The position numbers were made by a program, and so were the translations under genes. 64,000 bases of DNA, taken from positions 5,704,001-5,768,000 of the forward strand of contig NZ_JAFQ01000004.1 in NCBI RefSeq assembly GCF_000526215.1, read 5' to 3'. Shown piece after piece: positions 34,524 to 44,844 of the stretch (its first letter is position 1; the number at the start of each line of letters is the position of its first letter). Source of the DNA: Nocardia sp. BMG51109. Its GTDB lineage: Bacteria > Actinomycetota > Actinomycetes > Mycobacteriales > Mycobacteriaceae. The notes beneath the pieces are model-generated. The model searched no databases, was not told the origin of the DNA, and was given only the letters and a program-made list of their open reading frames with translations.

Positions 34524-35423
34524 CTACTTTCGCGCGGCCGCCTTGGCGGGACGGCGGGGTGATGTCTTGGCCGTCGTGGTCCGCTTGGCCGTCGTCTTCT
34601 TGGCGGGTGCCTTCGCGGCCGTCGTCGTCTTCTTGGCTGTCGTCTTCGTGGTCGCGGCCTTCGTGGTCGCGGCCTTCGCCGGGGCCTTCTTGGCGGCGGA
34701 CCTCTTCGGCTTGGTGGCCGAGCCGGATTCGATCAGCCGGGCGGCGTGCTCCAGGACGCAGTCGAGGCCGTACTCGAAGTTGCGGTCGTCGGGGGCGCCG
34801 CTGTGCAAGCCCTTCGAACTCGCTTCCGCCAGTAGGGGAGTGGTGTCGGGGGAGATGGTGAGGTTTTCGTAGTAGGCGCTCGGGCCGGCCTCGGATTCCT
34901 TGTTCTTATCGTAAAGGCGTTGCAGCACAACGGTTCCGTGGACATGCAGCTGGACCGCCGAGTAGGTGTCGACGGCGTCGTCCAGCGACAGCCCGGCCTC
35001 GACGAGGTTGGCGATCACCTGCTCGGTCTGGCGGGCGCCGAGCTGCGCGGCCTCGGGGCTCAGCGCCGACCTGATCAGGATGAGATCGCAGAGGATCGGG
35101 TTGCCCCGGAACGTATCCCGCATCGTGCGAGCGTGCCTGCGCAGCGACTCCTGCCAGCCGCGGGCCTCGACGAACGGGGTGACGAAGTCGACGTACTGGC
35201 GCAGGGCGCGGTCGGTCATCGCGTTGAGCAGGTCGTCCTTCTTGCGGAAGTACCAGTAGATGCTCGTGACGCCGACGTCGAGATGCTTGCCCAGCATCGG
35301 CATGCTCAGGTTGTCCAGCGACACCTGCTCGGCCAGCTCGAACGCACCGTCGAGAATATCCTCGGGATTGAGGGAACCGCGCTCGCGCCGCGGTCGTTTC
35401 TCCGCGGTTGCCCGCTTAGCCAT
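34524..35423 (-). CDS. TetR-family regulator with a lysine/alanine-rich, histone-H1-like C-terminal tail (299 aa)
   Basis: Residues about 1-235 are a TetR: LNPEDILDGAFELAEQ, MPMLGKHLDVGVTSIYWYFRKKDDLLNAM, then a TetR_C ligand domain (FRGNPILCDLILIRSALSPEAA). The last about 62 residues are low-complexity Lys/Ala/Thr/Pro with 16 Lys and 5 Arg and no acidic residue (for example AKKAPAKAATTKAATTK). Such tails are known in mycobacterial HupB and in histone H1 but are rare on TetR proteins. The tail should be disordered and may add non-specific DNA binding. The start is ATG 35423. It is divergent from an SDR gene, its likely target. Confidence 0.88.
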   Translation of the reverse strand: MAKRATAEKRPRRERGSLNPEDILDGAFELAEQVSLDNLSMPMLGKHLDVGVTSIYWYFRKKDDLLNAMTDRALRQYVDFVTPFVEARGWQESLRRHARTMRDTFRGNPILCDLILIRSALSPEAAQLGARQTEQVIANLVEAGLSLDDAVDTYSAVQLHVHGTVVLQRLYDKNKESEAGPSAYYENLTISPDTTPLLAEASSKGLHSGAPDDRNFEYGLDCVLEHAARLIESGSATKPKRSAAKKAPAKAATTKAATTKTTAKKTTTAAKAPAKKTTAKRTTTAKTSPRRPAKAAARK

Positions 35424-35613
35424 GTTCGTGACCACCTCCGTGAAGTCCGCTCCGATGCAGCTGTTTCCGGTCCGGGGGACCGGCGGGGAACACCGATCGT
35501 ACACGTAACCGTAACGCATACCGCTAGGTCTTCTACCGGCGCGTTGCCGGCGCCGGGGCGGTGTAGCCGCGGGTGTGCCGAGGCGAACGCTCCGCGGATT
35601 GCTACGGAATATA

Positions 35614-35736: not shown

Positions 35737-36534
35737 ATGGATTTGGGGTTGAAGGACGCCGCCGCGGTGGTGGTCGGCGGCAGCCGGGGAATGGGCCTGG
35801 CCACGGCGCGCTGCCTGGCCGACGAGGGCGCCCGGGTGGCCGTGGTCGGCCGCTCCCGCGCCGACCTCGACAACGCGGTCGGTGATCTTGCTCACCGAGG
35901 CAGTCCGGACGCCCTCGGCCTGGTCGCGGACGTGCGCGACACCGCCGGGATCGATGCCGCGTTCGCCGAACTCGGAAGTCGCTGGGACGGCCGGCTCAAC
36001 GTACTGATCAATACCGTCGGGCCGACGGTGCAGGGCCGCTTCGACATGCTGACCGACGAGCAGTGGCACGAGGCCGTCGACGACGGCGTGCTGTCGATGA
36101 CCCGTTGCGTGCGCGCGGCACTGCCGCTGCTCCGCGCCGCCGACTGGGCCCGGATCGTCAACTTCTCGGCGCATTCGACTCAGCGCCAGAGCATTCCGCT
36201 GGCGGCCTACACGGCCGCGAAGGCGATGCTGACGAGCGCGTCGAAGAATCTGTCGCTGCTGCTCGCCCCGGACGAGATCCTCGTGAACGTGGTGTCGCCC
36301 GGCACGTTCGTCACCCCGTCGCTGATCGGCTGGGCTCGCTCGGTCGGTGTCGAGAGCGACGACCCCTACGAGCTGATGTCCGCGATCGCCGGCCACTACG
36401 GCCATCCGGCCCAGCTGCCCCGCGCGGGCCGCCCCGAGGAGATCGGACCGGTCGTCGCATTCCTCGCCTCGCGACGGAACTCCTACATGACCGGAGCGGA
36501 CGTCAACGTCGACGGCGGCTCCGACTTCACCTGA
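35737..36534 (+). CDS. Short-chain dehydrogenase/reductase (265 aa)
   Basis: Glycine motif VVGGSRGMGLATA, VVGRSR after strand 2, LINTVGP in place of NNAG, and Ser/Tyr/Lys in NFSAHSTQRQ and YTAAKAML. The C-terminal GADVNVDGGSDFT is typical of fatty-acid or steroid-type SDRs. The start is ATG 35737 with GGAAGAAG upstream. It is divergent from the tailed TetR. The GGSRGMG and NTVGP variants set it apart from ordinary FabG. Confidence 0.9.
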   Translation: MDLGLKDAAAVVVGGSRGMGLATARCLADEGARVAVVGRSRADLDNAVGDLAHRGSPDALGLVADVRDTAGIDAAFAELGSRWDGRLNVLINTVGPTVQGRFDMLTDEQWHEAVDDGVLSMTRCVRAALPLLRAADWARIVNFSAHSTQRQSIPLAAYTAAKAMLTSASKNLSLLLAPDEILVNVVSPGTFVTPSLIGWARSVGVESDDPYELMSAIAGHYGHPAQLPRAGRPEEIGPVVAFLASRRNSYMTGADVNVDGGSDFT

Positions 36535-36540
36535 GCCCCG

Positions 36541-37722
36541 TCACACCTGCTTGCCGTCGATCAGTGCCGCCAGTACGTCGAAGCTGTCGTGCGCCGCGAC
36601 CCCGGCGACCGCGCGCTCGACACCGACCCGCGACACCTCGAACGGCTGCATGCGCTCCCCGGCCTCGGCGGTGCAGACGGCGGCGAGGAACAGTTCGGTG
36701 ATCGCCGCCCGATACAGCGTCCACATCCGCTCGGCGTCGACACCGATACCGGCGGCGTCGAGCCGGGCGGTGTAGCGCTCGACGAGAGCGCGTTCGATCC
36801 GTCGCAGCAGCACCGGCTCGACCGAGGCATTCGCGAAGTAGGCGATATCGCGGATACCCGCACCGGCCGTCGCGATCTGCCAGTCCAGCAGTCCCGGCCC
36901 GCCCTCGGTGAAGAAGAGGTTGCCCAGGTGCGGGTCGGCGTGGATGAGCGTCCGCGGTTGCGCGGCCCAGAAGGTATCGATAGCGGCGCTGCGCCGGTAG
37001 AAGATTCGGCACCGTTGCTTCATCGCGTCGGGGACGAGATCGGCGGCATGCCCGGTGATCTGCCCCAGGAACTGCCGGCGGATGAGATCGCCGAGGCGGA
37101 TATCGGCCGCCGTCCGCACGGCGAGCGGACGGAGATCACCGGCGAACCGGCCGGTCCCCCAGAACGCGGCATGCAGATCGGCCATGGCGTCGACGACGGC
37201 CTCCGCCTCGTCCCGCGTCACCGTGTCGACAACGGTGCGGAACTGCGCCACCTCCGAGAGATCCTCCAGGACCAGAATGTTCCGCCGCCGAATCCGATCA
37301 TGCTGCGCCACATGGCATCGCGGCACCCGGACCGGCGGATTCGGACCCAGCGCGCGGTAGGCGTGCACCTCCCGGGTCCCCAGCCGGAAGACGTTCATCA
37401 AGACGTGCTGAAGATAATCCCGCGGCGGCAGTTTCACGAACAACTGCTCCGGAATATCGCCGCGATCGGATTTCACGGCCATGCGAGCGCGCGCCGCCGT
37501 GCCGGAGCCGGACTCCAGCACGCGCACCGAGTCGATCGCGCCCGGCGGAGCACCGAGCGCGGTCGCGAGCCAGCGTGCGGTGATCTCCTCGGCTCGCCGC
37601 GGAATAGCTGCCGGGCCGGGCACGACGCGATCGAGCCCGGCCCGAAGCCCTTCTCGCGCAGCCAGTCCCACAGCGAGACCCGTCGTGAACCATCGCACGC
37701 TCATGAGCGCGCCCACCGGCAC
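36541..37722 (-). CDS. Aminoglycoside/ecdysteroid-kinase-like phosphotransferase (393 aa)
   Basis: APH/choline-kinase fold: N-lobe SGSGTAARARMAVKS and LFVKLPP (ATP Lys), the catalytic loop LIHADPHLGNLFF (Brenner motif), and the metal motif LLDWQIATAGAGIRDIAYF. It most resembles the EcKinase/DUF1679-like phosphotransferases common in mycobacteria and Nocardia, whose substrates are mostly unknown. It is the last gene of the NorQD-type operon, starting 10 bp after the 141-aa gene. GTG 37722 has GAGG upstream; ATG 37704 is the alternative. Role in the operon: perhaps phosphorylation of a small substrate or product. Confidence 0.85.
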   Translation of the reverse strand: MPVGALMSVRWFTTGLAVGLAAREGLRAGLDRVVPGPAAIPRRAEEITARWLATALGAPPGAIDSVRVLESGSGTAARARMAVKSDRGDIPEQLFVKLPPRDYLQHVLMNVFRLGTREVHAYRALGPNPPVRVPRCHVAQHDRIRRRNILVLEDLSEVAQFRTVVDTVTRDEAEAVVDAMADLHAAFWGTGRFAGDLRPLAVRTAADIRLGDLIRRQFLGQITGHAADLVPDAMKQRCRIFYRRSAAIDTFWAAQPRTLIHADPHLGNLFFTEGGPGLLDWQIATAGAGIRDIAYFANASVEPVLLRRIERALVERYTARLDAAGIGVDAERMWTLYRAAITELFLAAVCTAEAGERMQPFEVSRVGVERAVAGVAAHDSFDVLAALIDGKQV

Positions 37723-37731
37723 GACGCTGCC

Positions 37732-38157
37732 TCAGGGGTGCCCGGCCTGCTGCCGGGCGATCCGCTCGTCGTGGTTGCGGACGAGCTCGCGATAGCCGAT
37801 CCGCTTCCATTCCGGCTTGGGCTGGACGCCCCACTGGTCCCGGGCCGTGGTCTGGCCCTCGGCCTCCGGCTTACCACCGAGCGGCGGCGCGTTGAACGCA
37901 CCCTGCTCGCATTCCAGGGTGTCGTCGGAATAGCGGACCTTCATCATCTCGTCGCAGATCTCGGTGAGCGACAAGGTGGGCCAGCCGTACCAGAGCGCGA
38001 GCGCGGGCACGGTCAGCGATCCCTCGACGACCAGGGCGACCAGGCAGACGAGAATGCCCCGCTTGAGCCACCTGTGCATTCTCGCGAACGGCGCGGTGGT
38101 GCCGAGCGGTAGTTCCGGCTCCGGCGAGGTCTCGGCGGCAGATGGTTGAGTGCTCAT
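37732..38157 (-). CDS. Single-pass membrane protein of unknown function (141 aa)
   Basis: A Pro/Glu-rich N terminus is followed by a basic patch (RMHRWLKR) and one hydrophobic helix at about 34-56. A soluble C-terminal domain follows with two Cys (68 and 83, in TEICDEMMK and TLECEQG) and [31 protein letters not shown]. By the positive-inside rule the C-terminal domain is outside, where the Cys pair could form a disulfide or bind metal. It is in an operon after the 244-aa membrane protein (31-bp gap). No family was recognised. Confidence 0.75.
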
Positions 38158-38188
38158 GATGTTCTCCTGGCGCACAGGGTGATTCGGA

Positions 38189-38923
38189 TCAGTCGGAGAA
38201 GATTTCCCGGTTGACCGTGTGGAGGTAGGGGATGGCGAGGAACGGTGTGATGTAGAAGATGTCGTACAACCACCATCCGGTCACCGGCAGTACGACGCCG
38301 TCGAAGCGCACGTCGGCGTACATGGTCATGTTCACGACGTAGCCGATCCAGATCACCACCCCGAACCAGCAGGTGACGATCAGCCACTGGTGGCCCCAGC
38401 GCTTCATCTGCAGGAAGGCGATCGCGGCGGCGACCCGCATCGGGAAGACGGTGAGGATCAGCGCGACCTCCCAGCCCTTCTCACCGGGCGCCCCGGCGCC
38501 GCCGATGCCCAGCTCGTTGTAGTGCCAGAAGTAGCCGGCGTCGACGAAATTCCCCCAGGCCGTGAAGAATACGCGGGTGACCAGGGTGTGGCTGGCGAAC
38601 AGGTCCAGCACCCAGCCGATGCTGTTGAGGAAGGCGTCGAGGATCACCAGGTAACCGATCAGCGTGACGATGATCGGCCGTACCGACAGGCCGTCGCGTT
38701 GTGCCTTGCGCTGCAACCACACTCCGCGCAGGAAGAACGGGAGGCCGATGAATCCGAAGATGAAGGTGCCCATCAGTGCGGTGCCGGTGGTGAGCCAGCG
38801 GTCGGCCCGGCGCTGCGCCCGGCGGCTCTCGTCGTGGTGCTCGTCGTAGGTGACCGAGGCATTCCCGTTGGCCCCCGGTGCTTTTCCGGCACCGCGGCGC
38901 CGGGTGAAGGTCGGCATGTTCAT
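38189..38923 (-). CDS. Polytopic membrane protein with conserved-looking His/acidic residues (244 aa)
   Basis: Roughly five hydrophobic segments (about 43-68, 82-108, 151-170, 179-200, 211-233) follow a 40-residue charged N terminus containing [10 protein letters not shown]. His residues lie at 29, 30, 112, 134, 178 and 235, and [13 protein letters not shown] (about 127-139) combines Asp, His and Glu in a likely loop. It starts 8 bp after the 39-aa gene and two genes after NorQ. The size and position make it the best in-operon candidate for a metalloenzyme or its membrane subunit served by NorQ/NorD. No similarity to NorB, NorC or copper monooxygenase subunits could be recognised. The function is unknown. 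Confidence 0.8.
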
Positions 38924-38931
38924 GAGCGCAC

Positions 38932-39051
38932 CTACCAGTCCCTGGTCATGTACATCTGTAACTGGATGAGAAACATCGCCAGCAGGAATCCGTAGATGGC
39001 GATCTGGAAGACGATCAGCGCCCGGCGGCGCTTGCGGTCCTGTTCGTTCAT
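38932..39051 (-). CDS. 39-aa single-helix membrane peptide
   Basis: ATG 39051 has AGGAGGA upstream. The peptide starts MNEQDRKRRR, then one hydrophobic helix (ALIVFQIAIYGFLLAMFLIQ) and ends MTRDW. The strong Shine-Dalgarno, location between NorQ (19-bp gap) and the 244-aa gene (8-bp gap), and clear membrane topology argue it is real. Small single-helix peptides are often accessory subunits of membrane enzymes. Confidence 0.75.
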   Translation of the reverse strand: MNEQDRKRRRALIVFQIAIYGFLLAMFLIQLQMYMTRDW

Positions 39052-39070
39052 AAAGGTGTCCTCCTGGTGA

Positions 39071-39898
39071 TCACACCGGTGAGTCGTCCGCGGCGAGCAG
39101 GCTTGCCGCCGCTATCTCACGCAGACCTTCGTGAATGGCGCCGTCGCCGCTCAGCGGCGCCAGCACGCATGCCTCGGCGGCCTCGAGCTCGTCGGCGCCC
39201 GCGGCGACCAGCCGCGCCGCGGCCACCAGCACGCGGGTCGACGGCGGCTCGAAGTGGAAGACGTCGTCGGCATGGCGAATGGTGTTGGCGCAGTGGACGA
39301 GTCGCCGGGCAACCGGCAACGCGACACCGGACTCCTCGACCAGCACCTCGGTTTCGCGCTCGGCCGGCAGGTAGTCCATGGCGAGGGTGACGAAGCGCTG
39401 CCGGAACGACGGCTTCAGCTCCTTGAGGGAGCTGCGATACGCCGGGTTGTACGAGCAGACCAGCATGAACGACGCCGGCGCCGCGACCACCTCGTCCGCG
39501 CGGTCGAGAAACAGCGTGCGCCGGTGGTCGGTGAGCGAATGCAGTACGGCCAGCGAATCGTGCCGGGCCTCGACCACCTCGTCCAGATAGCACAGCGCAC
39601 CGGACTTGACCGCCCTGGTCAGCGGGCCGTCGGTCCAGGTGACGTCGCCGCCGGACACCAGGAACCGGCCGACGAGATCCGAACTGGTGAGATCGTCGTG
39701 ACAGCTGATCGTGACCACGGGCCGGCCGAGCAGATGGCCCATGTGCTCGACCAGGCGGGTCTTCCCGCACCCGGTCGGTCCGGTGAGCATGACCGGCATC
39801 CGCTGGTGGAAGGCGCGCTCGAACAGCTGCACCTCGGTGCCCGTGGCAAGGTAGAAATCGGTATTCACCGGAGAACCTCCCGAGGATTGATTCGTCAT
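39071..39898 (-). CDS. NorQ/CbbQ/NirQ-type AAA+ ATPase (MoxR group, 275 aa)
   Basis: Walker A GPTGCGKTRLVEHM, Walker B LCYLDEVVEA, sensor-1 region LVCSYNPAYRS, and the family stretch LKPSFRQRFVTL. CbbQ/NorQ proteins form hexamers that work with a VWA partner to load or activate metal centres (NO reductase, Rubisco, others). ATG 39898 overlaps the stop of the NorD-like gene as ATGA, so the two are translationally coupled. The gene context is an orphan: no norB, norC or cbbL is seen in the window. Confidence 0.92.
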   Translation of the reverse strand: MTNQSSGGSPVNTDFYLATGTEVQLFERAFHQRMPVMLTGPTGCGKTRLVEHMGHLLGRPVVTISCHDDLTSSDLVGRFLVSGGDVTWTDGPLTRAVKSGALCYLDEVVEARHDSLAVLHSLTDHRRTLFLDRADEVVAAPASFMLVCSYNPAYRSSLKELKPSFRQRFVTLAMDYLPAERETEVLVEESGVALPVARRLVHCANTIRHADDVFHFEPPSTRVLVAAARLVAAGADELEAAEACVLAPLSGDGAIHEGLREIAAASLLAADDSPV

Positions 39899-41424
39899 GG
39901 GGCGACCAACTCTCGGTGCACCCGGGCCAGCACCCGGGGCAGCTCGTCCACCCGCCGGATCCGGTGGGATCGGCGCGCCCCGAACACCTCCGGAAGCGGA
40001 TCGACCCGAGTCGGGCCCACGCCGAGGTAGTAGATCGAGACGCCGGCCTCGTCGGCCTCCTCGACGGCATGCGCGACATCCGCCCAGGCGTAACGCCCTT
40101 CGTAGCCCTCGTCGGACATCAGCCCGTCCCCGATCACGAGCAGCAGCCGTCGCTCGGACGGCTGCGCGAGCAGGCGCCGGGTCAGGTGCCGCAGTGGCGC
40201 CCCGAGCCGGGTGTAGCCGCCGGTGCCGAGCCCGAGACCGCCCGGATCCACGAAACGCGGATCGCCGAAGTCCTTCAGGCACCGAACCTCGACCCGATGC
40301 CGGGTGTTGCCGGTGAAGACGAACAGGCCGTGCCGTTCCCGGGCCAGCGCCATGGCACGCGAGAGCGCGTCGGCGCAGTCCAGCTCCAGCCGGAAGATCC
40401 GCCCGCCGTGCACGCCGAGCGAGGAACTGCCGTCCAGCAGCACCGCCGTGGTGACGTCGCGGGACGCGGGCAGCAGCTCCCGGAACACCCGCGGCTCGGA
40501 GGCCGCGCTCGACAGCGCGTCCACGTAATGACCGACGTACCGGTCGATGTCGAGATCCGACCCGTCCTCCAGGCCGCCGCGGAGGGCGCGATGCGTGTGT
40601 GCCTCGAACCACCGCCGGATGTCGGGGGAGACCGGGGCGACCGGGCGCGGCCGTGTCGGGTGGCCCAGCTCCAGCACCGCGACGTGGTCGCGCAGAAAGC
40701 CTTTCGTCCAGAGGTTCCACTCCGGATAGGGCAGTCCCGCCCGCCGATCGGCCCGAATCTCGGGCTCCTCGTTCTCCGGCCGGCTCGGCGGGGGCAGGTT
40801 CGTCGTCCGGTTGCCGCCGTCCCCGCCGATGGGGACCGACCACACGCGATAGCTGTCGCTGCGCTTCGACGTCCAGGGCATCCGGGCGTACGCCCGGCGC
40901 GCGGCCACGGCCAGGCTGCCTCGCGCGGGTGCCGCGAGCGGCAGCGTGCCCAGCAGCGGATGGCCGGAGAACTCCCGTCTGGACCGTGCCAAAACCAGTG
41001 CGCGGTCCAGCATCTCGTCTCCGTCGAGAGCGGGATCGGTGAGTTCCAGCTCGGGCAGCAGCCGCCGCAGTTCGGGCAGCAGGCCGGGCAGCTGTTCGGC
41101 GATCCATCCCGCGGCCACGCCGCCCTCGACGAGCGACAGGGCACCCAGCTCGCGCGGGGACAACTCGTGCAGCGGGTATCCCGCCATACGGTCTTTCGAG
41201 GGCGAACATTGCAGCGCCACACCGCATGTCAGCGTCCTGCGGGTCCACTCCGGGGACAGCGGCGGGTACGGGACGTGCACCACATCGCGGGCGGCGTTCA
41301 GGCCGAAGCCGCGGCGTTCACCGGTCACCAGCCGGACCCCGTCGCGGCGGCGACCGGAGAAGGCGACAGCCGTGACCGCACAACTGCGCTCGACGAACAG
41401 GCCGGGCGCACCGCGGGCGTTCAC
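39895..41424 (-). CDS. NorD/CbbO-like VWA-domain protein (509 aa)
   Basis: The C-terminal VWA domain (about 320-500) has the MIDAS motif LDGSSSLG, then FTGNTRH, GTGGYTRLGAPLRH and VIGDGLMSDEGYEG. The N-terminal part is helical with no recognised domain. Family partners of NorQ/CbbQ tether the AAA+ ring to its client through the MIDAS metal. The start is GTG 41424, 40 bp after the 32-aa gene. With the downstream ATPase it forms the standard chaperone pair, here without a known client. Confidence 0.9.
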   Translation of the reverse strand: MNARGAPGLFVERSCAVTAVAFSGRRRDGVRLVTGERRGFGLNAARDVVHVPYPPLSPEWTRRTLTCGVALQCSPSKDRMAGYPLHELSPRELGALSLVEGGVAAGWIAEQLPGLLPELRRLLPELELTDPALDGDEMLDRALVLARSRREFSGHPLLGTLPLAAPARGSLAVAARRAYARMPWTSKRSDSYRVWSVPIGGDGGNRTTNLPPPSRPENEEPEIRADRRAGLPYPEWNLWTKGFLRDHVAVLELGHPTRPRPVAPVSPDIRRWFEAHTHRALRGGLEDGSDLDIDRYVGHYVDALSSAASEPRVFRELLPASRDVTTAVLLDGSSSLGVHGGRIFRLELDCADALSRAMALARERHGLFVFTGNTRHRVEVRCLKDFGDPRFVDPGGLGLGTGGYTRLGAPLRHLTRRLLAQPSERRLLLVIGDGLMSDEGYEGRYAWADVAHAVEEADEAGVSIYYLGVGPTRVDPLPEVFGARRSHRIRRVDELPRVLARVHRELVAP

Positions 41425-41464
41425 GGCGAACCTCGCAGCGCGAGACTTGCCGTGCCGGGGCGCC

Positions 41465-41563
41465 TCAGAAGGTGCCGATGTTCTTCATGATCCAGTACCA
41501 GAAGGCGATGATCAGCAGTACCGCTCCCCAGGCGAGGGCGATCCGTACGAGGTCCAGCAGCAT
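41465..41563 (-). CDS. 32-aa single-helix membrane peptide
   Basis: ATG 41563 with GGAGAGAAG upstream; the peptide MLLDLVRIALAWGAVLL continues IIAFWYWIMKNIGTF. One hydrophobic helix spans nearly the whole chain, with an aromatic-rich end. It is the first gene after the TetR and precedes NorD. Too short for many gene callers but with convincing signals. Confidence 0.7.
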   Translation of the reverse strand: MLLDLVRIALAWGAVLLIIAFWYWIMKNIGTF

Positions 41564-41632
41564 TGTCTTCTCTCCGTCCGTGCGGGTTCGAGTCGGCGGG
41601 ATGCGTGTCGAACGTGGTTCGTGGTGCGCCGT

Positions 41633-42241
41633 TCATCGCGGCTCCAGGCTGCGCAGGATGGTGACGAGGTAGTTGTCGAGGACGCTGTCGCGCAGCGCTT
41701 TCGACCCCGACGTCGTGGTCAGCAGCGCGTAGAGCCCGATCAGGAAGAACACCGCGCTGTGGTAGGGATCCACGGCGATCTCGGCCTCGCCGTTCTCGCG
41801 GGCGCGCCGGATCTCGTCGACCACCAGCACGATCACGGGATGTTCCCGCCACTCGTCGTCCAGCGGGCGGGCCGGCGAGAAGTGAATGGCGAGCATCTCC
41901 TTGAACAGGAGGTTGCCCAGCCGTCCTTCCAGATTGGCCACCAGCCGGATGGTCTTGCGCAATGCGGACGGCAGATCATGGGGTTTGTCGAGGAACCGGG
42001 ACAGCTCCTTGGCTATCCGGGCCTCCTCGCGGGTCTCCAGCTCCAGCAGCGCATGCTCTTTCGAGGGGAAGTGGAAGTAGAAGGTGCCCCGCGCCACGCC
42101 CGCGGCCTCGGCGATCGTGCCGATATCGGCATCGGCCATGCCGACGTTCATGAACTCGGCGATGGCCGCGTCGAGGACCCGCTGCCGCGTCCGCAGCCGC
42201 TGGGCCTCCCGCCCGCCGGGCTTGTCCTGCACTTCGCTCAT
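41633..42241 (-). CDS. TetR-family regulator heading the NorQD operon (202 aa)
   Basis: HTH: RLRTRQRVLDAAIAEFMNVGMA, IGTIAEAAGVARGTFYFHFPSKEHALLEL. The C-terminal domain has FFLIGLYALLTTTS. ATG 42241 (MSEVQDKPGG) gives a normal family length; the frame stays open to 42388. It lies on the same strand as, and 69 bp before, the 32-aa gene, so it is probably the first gene and autoregulator of the operon. A TGACA-GA-TGTCA palindrome lies upstream. Confidence 0.88.
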   Translation of the reverse strand: MSEVQDKPGGREAQRLRTRQRVLDAAIAEFMNVGMADADIGTIAEAAGVARGTFYFHFPSKEHALLELETREEARIAKELSRFLDKPHDLPSALRKTIRLVANLEGRLGNLLFKEMLAIHFSPARPLDDEWREHPVIVLVVDEIRRARENGEAEIAVDPYHSAVFFLIGLYALLTTTSGSKALRDSVLDNYLVTILRSLEPR

Positions 42242-42515: not shown

Positions 42516-42962
42516 TCAGGCCACCAGGTCGTCCGGTTCGACGGGGGCGAAGAACGCGTTCATGCCGCCCGGCGTCAGTGCGTCGCCGAGCGCGACGAAG
42601 TCGTAGGACAGCCGCGGACTCCACGCGATCCGGCCGACCTCGGCGAGCGTCTGGTGCCGGCGGCCGGGAAGCAGTACCCGGTGCAGCCGGATGAGGTCGG
42701 CGTCCAGCGAACCCGCCCGCTGCTGCGCATAGCTGATCATCAGATGCAGGCACAACTGTTCGGCAGGGGTGCCGGGATGCGGATCGAGCCCGAGCGACAA
42801 CCTCTGGTGCAGGGTGTCGAAGGTCTGCTCGATGTAGTACAGGAAGACCGGCCGCGGGCTGTGCAGCAGCTTCGCCCGCACCTGCTCGGCCAGCGCGTCG
42901 CCGGCGCCGAGCAGTATCCGGACGGTGCGCGGTGTGAGACCGGGAATAGTGTTGTCGCTCAT
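42516..42962 (-). CDS. Hypothetical helical protein (148 aa)
   Basis: ATG 42962 with GAGGAGAGA upstream. Mostly alpha-helical, soluble, no signal peptide: LTPRTVRILLGAGDALAEQVRAKLL, YYIEQTFDTLHQRL, EQLCLHLMISYAQQRAG, then an Arg/His-rich stretch (LPGRRHQTLAEVGRIAW). No family was recognised. It lies upstream of the TetR/NorQD operon on the same strand with a 274-bp gap, and divergent from the aldehyde dehydrogenase. Confidence 0.7.
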   Translation of the reverse strand: MSDNTIPGLTPRTVRILLGAGDALAEQVRAKLLHSPRPVFLYYIEQTFDTLHQRLSLGLDPHPGTPAEQLCLHLMISYAQQRAGSLDADLIRLHRVLLPGRRHQTLAEVGRIAWSPRLSYDFVALGDALTPGGMNAFFAPVEPDDLVA

Positions 42963-43216
42963 CGTCTCTCCTCGCAACGCCACACCGCACCCGGTGCGCA
43001 CCGGAACCGCGTCATCGCGCGGCTACCGGCTCGGCCACTGTGCCACCTTGGACTGTAAGGCATTCAGTATCTTGTTCGCAAGGAAACGGGTGGATCGGAG
43101 GCGGTGATCGCGTCTCCCGGCGGCGGTGTGCCGGTGGTTGCCTCGCTGTCCGGGGCGATCCGCGACCGGAGAAGGGGGCGCCGCGCATTCCGATTCGGCG
43201 GAGCGCGACTGCTGTT

Positions 43217-43245
43217 ACAGTTTCCATTACTGGAGTATCAACTGT
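43217..43245. promoter_or_regulatory. ACAGTT-N17-AACTGT repeat before the aldehyde dehydrogenase
   Basis: The 352-bp divergent gap 42963-43314 holds this 6-bp-arm inverted repeat in a locally AT-rich segment about 70 bp before the ALDH start. It could be a promoter/operator. No other feature was recognised in the gap. Confidence 0.35.
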
Positions 43246-43314
43246 CTGGGGGTCCTCACCCGCTGTGGCGCACGGGCCGGCCGACCTGAGTTTCTCGATC
43301 GAAAGATTTCCCGC

Positions 43315-44844
43315 ATGACCACGAATACCGGGCAACGGCGCGATGGCCACGAAAAGAACTGTTCGGCAGAGGAACTCGCGGAACCGGCCGAGATCCTGGC
43401 GCTGCAACGACGGGCCTACCGGCAGGAGGGCCCGCCCTCGGCCGCCGTCCGCCGGCACCGGATCGACCGCCTGCTCGCCCTGGTTCTGGACAACCTCGAC
43501 GCGTATGTCGATGCGCTGTCCCGCGATTTCGGCACCAGGTCCCGCACCGGAATCCTGTTCGCGGAGATCATGGGCATGCTCTCGACCATCGAGCACACCC
43601 GCTCGCATATCGGCGCGTGGATGCGGCCCCGCAATCCCAAGCCGGTGGCCCGGCTGTACGGGATTCGTGCCCGGGTGCAGCCCACGCCGCTCGGCGCGGT
43701 CGGCATCATCGGGCCCTGGAACTTTCCCCTGCAGCTGGTCGTCGTGCCGGCGGCGGCCGCGTTCGCCGCGGGGAATCGGGTCATGATCAAGATGTCCGAG
43801 ATCACCGCGCACACAGCGGAACTCACCCGATCGCTGGTTCCCGAATATTTCGATCCGGCGGAGCTCGCGGTGGTGACCGGCGGCCCGGACGTGGCCGCCG
43901 CCTTCGCCGAGCTGCCGTTCGACCATCTGTTCTTCACCGGGTCGACGCGGGTCGGCCGGCTGGTGCAGCGGGCCGCCGCGGCGAATCTGGTCCCCGTGAC
44001 ACTGGAACTCGGCGGGAAGAATCCGGTGGTCGTCGCGCCCGATGCCGATATCGCCCGGGCGGGCGCCCGGATCGCGCGGGCCCGGATGGTCAACGGCGGG
44101 CAGGTCTGCGTGAGCCCCGACTGTGTCTTCGTTCCCGAGAGCCGCATGGACGCCTTCGCCACTGTGGTGCGCTCGGCGTTCCGCGACACCTTCCCGGTCA
44201 TCGCCGCCAACGACGACTACACGGCCTGCGTCGATGCCGCGAACTACGACCGCGTGCTGTCCCTCCTCGACGAAGCGCGGCGCCTGGGCGCGCGGGTGGA
44301 CCACATCGCCCCGCCCGGCGAGGCACTGCCCGACCCGGTTTCGCGGAAGATCCCGCCGACCATCGTCCGTGACGTCACTCCCGGCATGCGGATCGCCACC
44401 GAGGAGATCTTCGGCCCGGTCCTGGTCCTGCGCCCGTACACATCCCTCGCCGACGTCATCGACCACCTCGGCGACCAACCGTCCCCGCTGGTCGCCTACT
44501 GGTACGGCCCCGGCGGCCCCGACTTCCGCGCCTTCATCCGGAACACCCGCAGCGGTGGCGTCTCCCGAAACGACTTCGCCCTCACCATGTTCCCCGAGGC
44601 CGCCCCCTTCGGCGGCGTAGGCCACAGCGGCATGGGCGCCTACCGCGGCAAGGCGGGCTTCGACACCTTCACCCACTACCGCACGGTCGTAGCCACCGAC
44701 CTCCCCTTCGTCATCACCGCCCGCGCCGCCCCACCGTTCGGCCCGCTGCTCCAGCGCCTCATCGCGATCGCCCTGCGCACCGCCCACCGCCGCACCCGCC
44801 GCCGCCTTGCGACCGGGCCGCCCACCCGAACGCCCCAGCAGTGA
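43315..44844 (+). CDS. Aldehyde dehydrogenase, coniferyl-aldehyde-dehydrogenase-like (509 aa)
   Basis: ALDH superfamily motifs: IGPWNFPLQL, FFTGSTRVG, LELGGKNPVVV (general base Glu), GGQVCVSPDCVFV (nucleophile Cys) and EEIFGPVLVLRPY. The group resembles CalB and fatty-aldehyde-type ALDHs, which end with a hydrophobic, basic C-terminal segment as here (LLQRLIAIALRTAHRRTRRR), suggesting membrane association. ATG 43315 is chosen over the earlier in-frame start at 43126 because it fits the family. Probably oxidises a lipophilic aldehyde made by neighbouring SDR- or P450-type enzymes. Confidence 0.92.
   Translation: MTTNTGQRRDGHEKNCSAEELAEPAEILALQRRAYRQEGPPSAAVRRHRIDRLLALVLDNLDAYVDALSRDFGTRSRTGILFAEIMGMLSTIEHTRSHIGAWMRPRNPKPVARLYGIRARVQPTPLGAVGIIGPWNFPLQLVVVPAAAAFAAGNRVMIKMSEITAHTAELTRSLVPEYFDPAELAVVTGGPDVAAAFAELPFDHLFFTGSTRVGRLVQRAAAANLVPVTLELGGKNPVVVAPDADIARAGARIARARMVNGGQVCVSPDCVFVPESRMDAFATVVRSAFRDTFPVIAANDDYTACVDAANYDRVLSLLDEARRLGARVDHIAPPGEALPDPVSRKIPPTIVRDVTPGMRIATEEIFGPVLVLRPYTSLADVIDHLGDQPSPLVAYWYGPGGPDFRAFIRNTRSGGVSRNDFALTMFPEAAPFGGVGHSGMGAYRGKAGFDTFTHYRTVVATDLPFVITARAAPPFGPLLQRLIAIALRTAHRRTRRRLATGPPTRTPQQ

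Follow-up and report, generated by a model that had tools for sequence, protein, structure and literature searches.

Which protein does a NorQ/NorD activator pair serve in a bacterium that encodes no candidate for NorB, the client to be expected if the pair matured nitric oxide reductase (cNOR)? This question is raised by an eight-gene operon of Nocardia sp. BMG51109 that lies in a 64,000-nucleotide stretch of contig NZ_JAFQ01000004.1 (hereafter, the window) and encodes, besides a TetR-family regulator and a phosphotransferase, the AAA+ ATPase NorQ, the von Willebrand factor type A (VWA) adaptor NorD and four membrane proteins that we denote, by their lengths in amino acids (aa), P244, P141, P39 and P32. 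To our knowledge, few clients have been identified for MoxR-VWA pairs, although such pairs are widespread. Comparison of related loci leaves hardly any doubt that the four membrane proteins are a conserved unit with a dedicated NorQ/NorD pair (NorQD), and makes it very probable that they form a physical complex in which P244 is activated by this pair.

Judged by sequence, norQ and norD of the window encode a true NorQ/NorD pair. NorQ shows near full-length similarity to proven NorQ, matching solved NorQ proteins with E 1.5e-78 and 3e-75 over residues 5-265 of 275 (CbbQ was matched as well), and contains the Walker A motif, the AAA core and the CbbQ C-terminal domain. The match of NorD to solved NorD (E 9.6e-33) is restricted to residues 223-507, the C-terminal VWA half, in which the MIDAS motif DxSxS is present as DGSSS; the VWA match in Pfam is weak and below the cut-off, and the first ~220 residues show no match to solved NorD. 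Given that NorD, according to PMC13036017, contacts its target and is proposed to bind it partly via the N-terminal domain, a changed N-terminus next to a motor-binding half that is conserved would be expected for a new client. According to PMC9976466, both NorQ and NorD are required for FeB insertion into cNOR, and exchanges in the VWA MIDAS motif inactivate cNOR; PMC12657314 describes CbbQ/CbbO as thought to remodel the client rather than insert metal. A role in cNOR maturation was rejected here because the genome encodes no NorB candidate: its three COX1-family matches, all with E <= 2.6e-160, are read as aa3-type cytochrome oxidases, an assignment made without a separate model to resolve the subfamily. 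Accordingly, of the claim in an earlier sequence-only reading that NorB/NorC, Rubisco and CO dehydrogenase are absent, the NorB part holds, NorC, Rubisco and CO dehydrogenase not having been searched for in the genome; the designation of the pair as an orphan is not apt, given that norQD has a probable client in P244.

The conservation of the operon was traced with tblastn in 78 loci from named genomes, drawn from the best 80 of 338 relatives, with the layouts of distant members undersampled; P244 copies were counted only if they comprised at least 150 aa. Among the 109 P244 copies in these loci, 54 occur in the arrangement P32-NorD-NorQ-P39-P244-P141 and 19 in the arrangement P32-P39-P244-P141 without norDQ; 30 have no directly adjacent partners, 25 of these preceding a norQ operon on the same strand, and 6 are found in mixed arrangements. 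The presence of both norDQ-bearing and norDQ-less cores indicates that the unit is the core of four genes, into which norDQ is inserted. In a test set beforehand, gene order thus proved to be kept well beyond norQD; in a second one, none of the 120 listed P244 homologues was named as a protein with a proven non-metal role, some of them being automatically annotated as "Emopamil-binding protein" or "EXPERA domain-containing". Double operons, in which a second, partnerless P244 gene precedes P32-NorD-NorQ-P39-P244-P141, were observed in 25 of the 78 loci (e.g. L040-L045, L050, L054 and L062), which suggests a hetero-pair or alternative substrate subunits.

The small proteins are strongly conserved. 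In P32, which terminates in an aromatic-rich helix followed by GTF, residues W12, Y23, T31 and F32 are identical in 76 of 76 sequences; in all 78 sequences, own copy included, R8, I13, Q16, Y20, L23, F27, Q30 and W39 of P39 are identical, and so are H28, C38, E45, C68, E70, C83 and W109 of P141. Codon position 3 varies most in the P141, P39 and P32 genes, and this pattern, along with relatives in dozens of loci, led us to reject chance small open reading frames (ORFs). Viral or plasmid cargo was rejected as well, given that viral contigs yielded no confirmed relative (13 pattern matches) and that relatives came up in one plasmid record.

P244 co-occurs near-perfectly with one type of NorQ, although the NorQ gene of some cores lies at a different place in the genome. 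Among 301 family genomes, drawn evenly for the P244 and NorQ searches (the two draws are taken as identical, and negative genomes are mostly unlisted), P244 was detected in 32, and NorQ at E <= 1e-90 in 31 of these 32 compared to none of the 269 P244-negative genomes (Fisher 1.9e-41); in the exception, G412, the sequence TetR-P244-P32-NorD runs off the contig end. In a smaller panel of the family, NorQ with at least 75% identity was found in 8 of 8 P244-positive and 0 of 7 P244-negative genomes; the P244-negative genome G377 has a NorQ paralogue of 49% identity. Nine of the 19 norDQ-less cores (L014, L022, L023, L028, L048, L053, L059, L064 and L077) belong to 8 strains in which a locus with norDQ was observed as well, and in 9 of the remaining 10 genomes a NorQ of 77-81% identity is encoded elsewhere. 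Given that dedicated NorQ thus accompanies 18 of the 19 norDQ-less cores, one NorQD pair appears to serve several core sets per cell, in trans. In the draft genome of M. gordonae (L069/G688), P32-P39-P244-P141 is present and a dedicated NorQ was not found by the genome search.

The unit can be followed, in rearranged form, into a second P244 subfamily (48 proteins found; 28-37% identity in the 22 aligned) and into a more distant genome. On the M. branderi plasmid pJCM12687 (L083), a second-subfamily P244 (35% identity) is preceded by an 82-aa protein that appears to be a fusion of P32-like and P141-like helices: the P141 profile ranks this protein 1st among the 924 ORFs of L083 and L100 (E 0.0065), and the P32 profile only 4th (E 5.4). 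NorQ was not found on that plasmid record. The distant P244 set of this plasmid lies in a large acyl-CoA catabolic island (L083, 173-204 kb), and the plasmid also holds an AveC-like gene at 673,757. In L100, from an actinobacterium of another family (G121; P244 match E 1.1e-52), genes for P32-like, P141-like, P244, NorD, NorQ and APH proteins stand in one row; the P32-like peptide beside P244 ranks 1st of the 924 ORFs by the P32 profile (E 0.088) and the P141-like peptide 2nd by the P141 profile (E 0.12), a convergent gene encodes a TetR protein (TetR_N E 5.4e-16), and P450 and flavin monooxygenase genes are nearby. By these profile matches, L100 keeps seven of the eight operon parts together, in a different order and across a large evolutionary distance. 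The P39 profile gave no match at the expected places in L083 or L100; the 86-aa ORF that heads the L100 operon may, without profile support, be the P39 counterpart.

In the window itself, the ORF check placed all eight genes on the minus strand (Table 1), confirming the tightly spaced one-strand operon of the sequence-only reading: the gap between the TetR and P32 genes is 69 bp, and those downstream, from P32 to the kinase, are 40, -4 (the norD/norQ overlap), 19, 8, 31 and 9 bp, i.e. none exceeds 40 bp. Many of the 78 loci have TetR relatives (46-87% identity) next to the core. The kinase, which that reading had counted as a member of the operon, is only an occasional partner, present in 12 of the 78 loci, although an APH protein is again encoded in the distant operon of L100. 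The short-chain dehydrogenase/reductase (SDR) gene, whose relatives (76-86% identity) lie convergent just beyond the kinase in four Nocardia loci (L004, L005, L009 and L012) and farther off in L011, is an optional neighbor, and an F420 oxidoreductase and two crotonases are encoded near the operon. Two further genes of the window, both on the minus strand, were observed: just upstream of the operon, 42516-43001 encodes a 161-aa protein without a Pfam match that has similar proteins in 6 loci (matched by eye), and 34524-35486 encodes a TetR regulator whose long C-terminal tail, rich in Ala, Lys and Thr, appears histone-like by eye. A description of the operon was not found in open-licence PubMed Central (PMC) papers, subscription journals not being covered.

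Table 1. The operon and its neighbors in the window (TM, transmembrane)
Feature	Position	Strand	Evidence
TetR-family regulator, operon gene 1	41633..42241	-	TetR_N E 4.6e-12
P32, 32-aa single-TM peptide, C-terminal FWYWxxxNxGTF	41465..41563	-	76 relatives
NorD, VWA adaptor	39895..41424	-	solved NorD match over 223-507; DGSSS MIDAS at 331
NorQ, MoxR AAA+ ATPase	39071..39898	-	AAA_5 1.1e-36, CbbQ_C 1e-21
P39, 39-aa single-TM peptide	38932..39051	-	77 relatives, own copy excluded
P244, polytopic core protein, EXPERA-like predicted fold	38189..38923	-	homologues and AF2 model
P141, one TM helix and tail with two invariant Cys	37732..38157	-	conserved residues
APH/ecdysteroid-kinase-like phosphotransferase	36541..37722	-	APH 2.8e-13, EcKL 2.2e-11
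SDR convergent to the operon, optional neighbor	35737..36534	+	adh_short_C2 3.5e-44
Aldehyde dehydrogenase near operon start, context only	43228..44844	+	Aldedh 8e-77

What P244 might do was approached through its conserved residues and predicted structure. None of the four membrane proteins matches a Pfam or NCBIfam family above threshold; the sole Pfam match of P244 is sub-threshold (E 0.053), and searches of the PDB with its sequence gave no useful match. P244 has 537 homologues at E <= 1e-3, the best 120 of which are listed, with Nocardia proteins scoring highest; the window protein and 119 of these (P0111 was left out) form alignment A2, and 77 A2 proteins were joined with 33 of the 48 second-subfamily proteins in the two-subfamily alignment A4, fragments and close duplicates being omitted. 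In 111 sequences of both subfamilies, D41, R82, D96, N100, D128, N136, E148, R163, Y195, R206, P232 and several W and G residues are invariant, whereas no His is. Within the subfamily of the window, H112, H134, H178 and H235 vary little or not at all; in the second subfamily they are variable. Given this conservation, and the retention of a His at position 112 in P244 of G121 (by eye), a partial metal site is possible in the NorQD-linked P244 forms.

The AlphaFold2 (AF2) model of P244 (pLDDT 85.1, pTM 0.81) has an EXPERA-like helical fold, and VIA rows 1-7 of its structure comparison are the sterol delta8-delta7 isomerase EBP and the sigma-2 receptor; with a first model built from one subfamily, EBP ranked first, tied with unrelated bundles (10.7 vs 10.5). 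An EXPERA-like fold of P244 is thus likely on the basis of modeling. PF05241 did not score above its cut-off with P244, and no significant profile-profile match was obtained with hhalign, for which 43 of the 120 listed EXPERA proteins were aligned (A5; another run used only 2 or 4). The acidic residues at EBP positions 80 and 108 would fall on N100 and D128 of P244 by offset alone. One P244-carrying genome also encodes an EXPERA-like protein with an N-terminal extension and a sub-threshold PF05241 match of E 0.008 (L107, G038:C1:5877399).

The genomic context points to catabolism. Ten mycobacterial loci (L038, L046, L049, L053, L058, L064, L069, L071, L072 and L077) have a norDQ-less core in one conserved cluster, whose gene representatives include acyl-CoA dehydrogenases, enoyl-CoA hydratases, AMP-ligases, amidohydrolases, SDRs and a luciferase-like monooxygenase (the underlying gene calls were made heuristically, and shadow ORFs account for some of the clusters). 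At other loci, the neighbors include P450, Rieske, GMC, mycofactocin-SDR and flavin monooxygenase genes, the Rieske and mycofactocin-SDR genes being present on the M. branderi plasmid. The membrane set is fairly likely to be an enzyme that acts in the catabolism of hydrophobic compounds. Three features, each weak alone, together lead us to an isoprenoid or steroid as a tentative substrate, with a chance slightly short of even: the predicted fold resembles sterol isomerases, the kinase resembles steroid kinases and the surrounding catabolism is CoA-based. Two other kinds of protein were observed in these neighborhoods: DAP_DH_C (2,4-diaminopentanoate-dehydrogenase-like) proteins recur near the core in 27 loci (63 members, one representative scanned), with examples directly after P141 in L042 (15223) and L057 (11203 and 13358), and a 363-aa protein, membrane-like by eye and without a Pfam or NCBIfam family above threshold, is encoded near norDQ-less cores (L060, 7504-8592), with relatives in L048 and L081.

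The explanation that we favor, with slightly better than even confidence, is a heteromeric membrane enzyme of P244, P141, P39 and P32 that has a dedicated AAA+ activator and acts on a lipid-like substrate. P244, a helical bundle with the predicted fold of EBP and the sigma-2 receptor, would be the substrate-binding, catalytic subunit, in which D96, N100, D128 and E148 could act as acid/base residues or ligands, and P141, P39 and P32 would be single-helix subunits packed around it. NorQ, as a hexameric ATPase, and NorD, as the VWA adaptor, would work on the cytosolic side, as in the case of NO reductase, opening the immature complex and making it active by metal loading or remodeling; a single pair could serve multiple copies of the complex per cell. 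Within acyl-CoA catabolic pathways, the enzyme might act on a double bond of a hydrophobic compound of isoprenoid or steroid type, hydrate it, or close or open a ring in it, and the APH kinase, where present, could phosphorylate a hydroxyl of the product; chemistry, substrate and kinase role are all inferred. Given that no His is invariant in both subfamilies and that no electron-transfer partner is seen in the core, acid-base chemistry (isomerization, hydration/dehydration or cyclization) is more likely than redox chemistry. The chance of a bound metal is somewhat below even, and metal loading and remodeling without metal, as proposed for CbbQO, are equally possible as modes of NorQD action.

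The sequence-only reading had proposed an undescribed membrane metalloenzyme with two tiny subunits and its own activator. The undescribed membrane set, the tiny subunits and the own NorQ/NorD are borne out; the metalloenzyme part is not, given the missing cross-subfamily invariant His and a predicted fold that resembles acid-base sterol isomerases. In its redox form, the proposal would be an oxygenase or hydroxylase, similar to copper membrane monooxygenases, with an Fe or Cu center loaded by NorQD and a hydroxylated product that feeds the aldehyde dehydrogenase, SDR and kinase. Archaeal ammonia monooxygenase also has small single-TM subunits, oxidative neighbors (P450, flavin monooxygenase-like and Rieske) are many, P244 has several invariant carboxylates to which H28, C38, C68 and C83 of P141 could add ligands, and FeB insertion into a membrane protein is the best-known job of NorQD. 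However, apart from the His variation, no redox partner is seen in the core, and CbbQ/CbbO, again according to PMC12657314, are thought to remodel rather than insert metal. A copper membrane monooxygenase was rejected, given that no AMO/PMO family is among the 12 Pfam families matched by any of the 120 P244 members up to E 10. Altogether, we consider a redox metalloenzyme unlikely.

Still less probable, although compatible with the heteromeric lipid enzyme, is that P244 is related, as a compact form, to the AveC-like spirocyclases (PF17198), both being membrane cyclases or dehydratases activated by NorQD. A second class of NorQ/NorD pairs (class B) adjoins AveC-like genes in the genome of the window (G000:C3:39125-43464, L002), in L054 (15.4-19.0 kb), L057 (16.1-20.7 kb) and L112; in L054 and L057, no more than a few kb separate this set from the P244 operon. 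Each of 10 NorQ paralogues (47-50% identity; 7 f1 genomes listed in both searches) has an AveC-like gene within 1.6 kb, and four such neighbors were identified as AveC-like with E 3e-101 to 3.7e-46. Comparison of P244 with 30 AveC-like proteins using hhalign (all 30 used, longer ones cut to the last 430 residues) scored 30.0 (E 0.0027) against maxima of 25.9 for 100 column shuffles, 15.9 for the reversed profile and 22.4 for 87 other families. However, this match has a probability of 11%, covers 53 columns in a register that is unstable between runs, falls to 26.0 with a trimmed alignment and disappears in global alignment (5.3), and the 87 control families are mostly soluble proteins. PF17198 is not among the 12 Pfam families matched by any of the 120 P244 members, and P32, P39 and P141 were not found by tblastn beside the class-B pairs in L002 (3.8 kb) or L112 (18 kb). 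The probabilities that we attach to the favored explanation and its rivals sum to more than one because the AveC relationship does not exclude that explanation.

The weakest alternative, decidedly improbable, is that the membrane proteins are a lipid transporter, sensor or stability factor that NorQD merely assembles: small TM subunits are common in transporters and EXPERA includes the ligand-binding protein TMEM97 (sigma-2 receptor), but repeated duplication into separate acyl-CoA catabolic clusters and the invariant acids fit catalysis better, and the Pfam scan found no transporter ATPase or carrier family among the operon proteins.

The AveC-like sets suggest, but do not prove, that the NorQD pairs of actinobacteria have, in general, a single kind of intramembrane enzyme as their client. 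In a bolder form that we regard as rather unlikely, these pairs would be general activators of an intramembrane sterol-isomerase-like superfamily that comprises P244 complexes and AveC-like spirocyclases, and P244 would be the first heteromeric EXPERA-fold enzyme to need an ATP-driven, possibly metal-loading chaperone; soil actinobacteria would then have an unrecognized step in isoprenoid or steroid breakdown. With the client pinned by near-perfect co-occurrence, the role of norQD without NO reductase becomes directly testable. Should the client be an EXPERA-fold enzyme, a bacterial complex of lipid catabolism, equipped with accessory subunits and an ATP-driven activator, would be linked to a eukaryotic fold of medical importance (EBP, sigma-2 receptor, TM6SF2), and it would provide a genetically tractable model for NorQD outside NO reductase.

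Among known systems, the EXPERA proteins (EBP sterol isomerase, TMEM97 and TM6SF2) differ from P244, which has no profile similarity to them, would have D-x3-N in place of H-x3-E, possesses an additional N-terminal helix outside the match and is accompanied by three small partner proteins and an AAA+ pair. The AveC-like proteins with class-B NorQD resemble P244 as polytopic membrane proteins beside their own NorQ/NorD, in the same genomes and in lipid-catabolic surroundings; their NorQ, however, is only 46-51% identical to the dedicated NorQ, and the membrane protein is larger. The MoxR/VWA pair of CO dehydrogenase (MSMEG_0748/0751) is likewise a mycobacterial MoxR-VWA pair that is proposed to mature a neighboring enzyme, although its proposed client, CO dehydrogenase, is a molybdenum/FAD/Fe-S enzyme. 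NorQ/NorD of cNOR differ in that, here, there is no NorB candidate, the first ~220 residues of NorD are unmatched and the client is a four-protein set without a NorB/NorC family match; in common, the two systems have a NorQ homologous over nearly its whole length, a NorD VWA half with the MIDAS motif and, as the presumed client, a polytopic membrane protein that is partnered by a single-TM protein.

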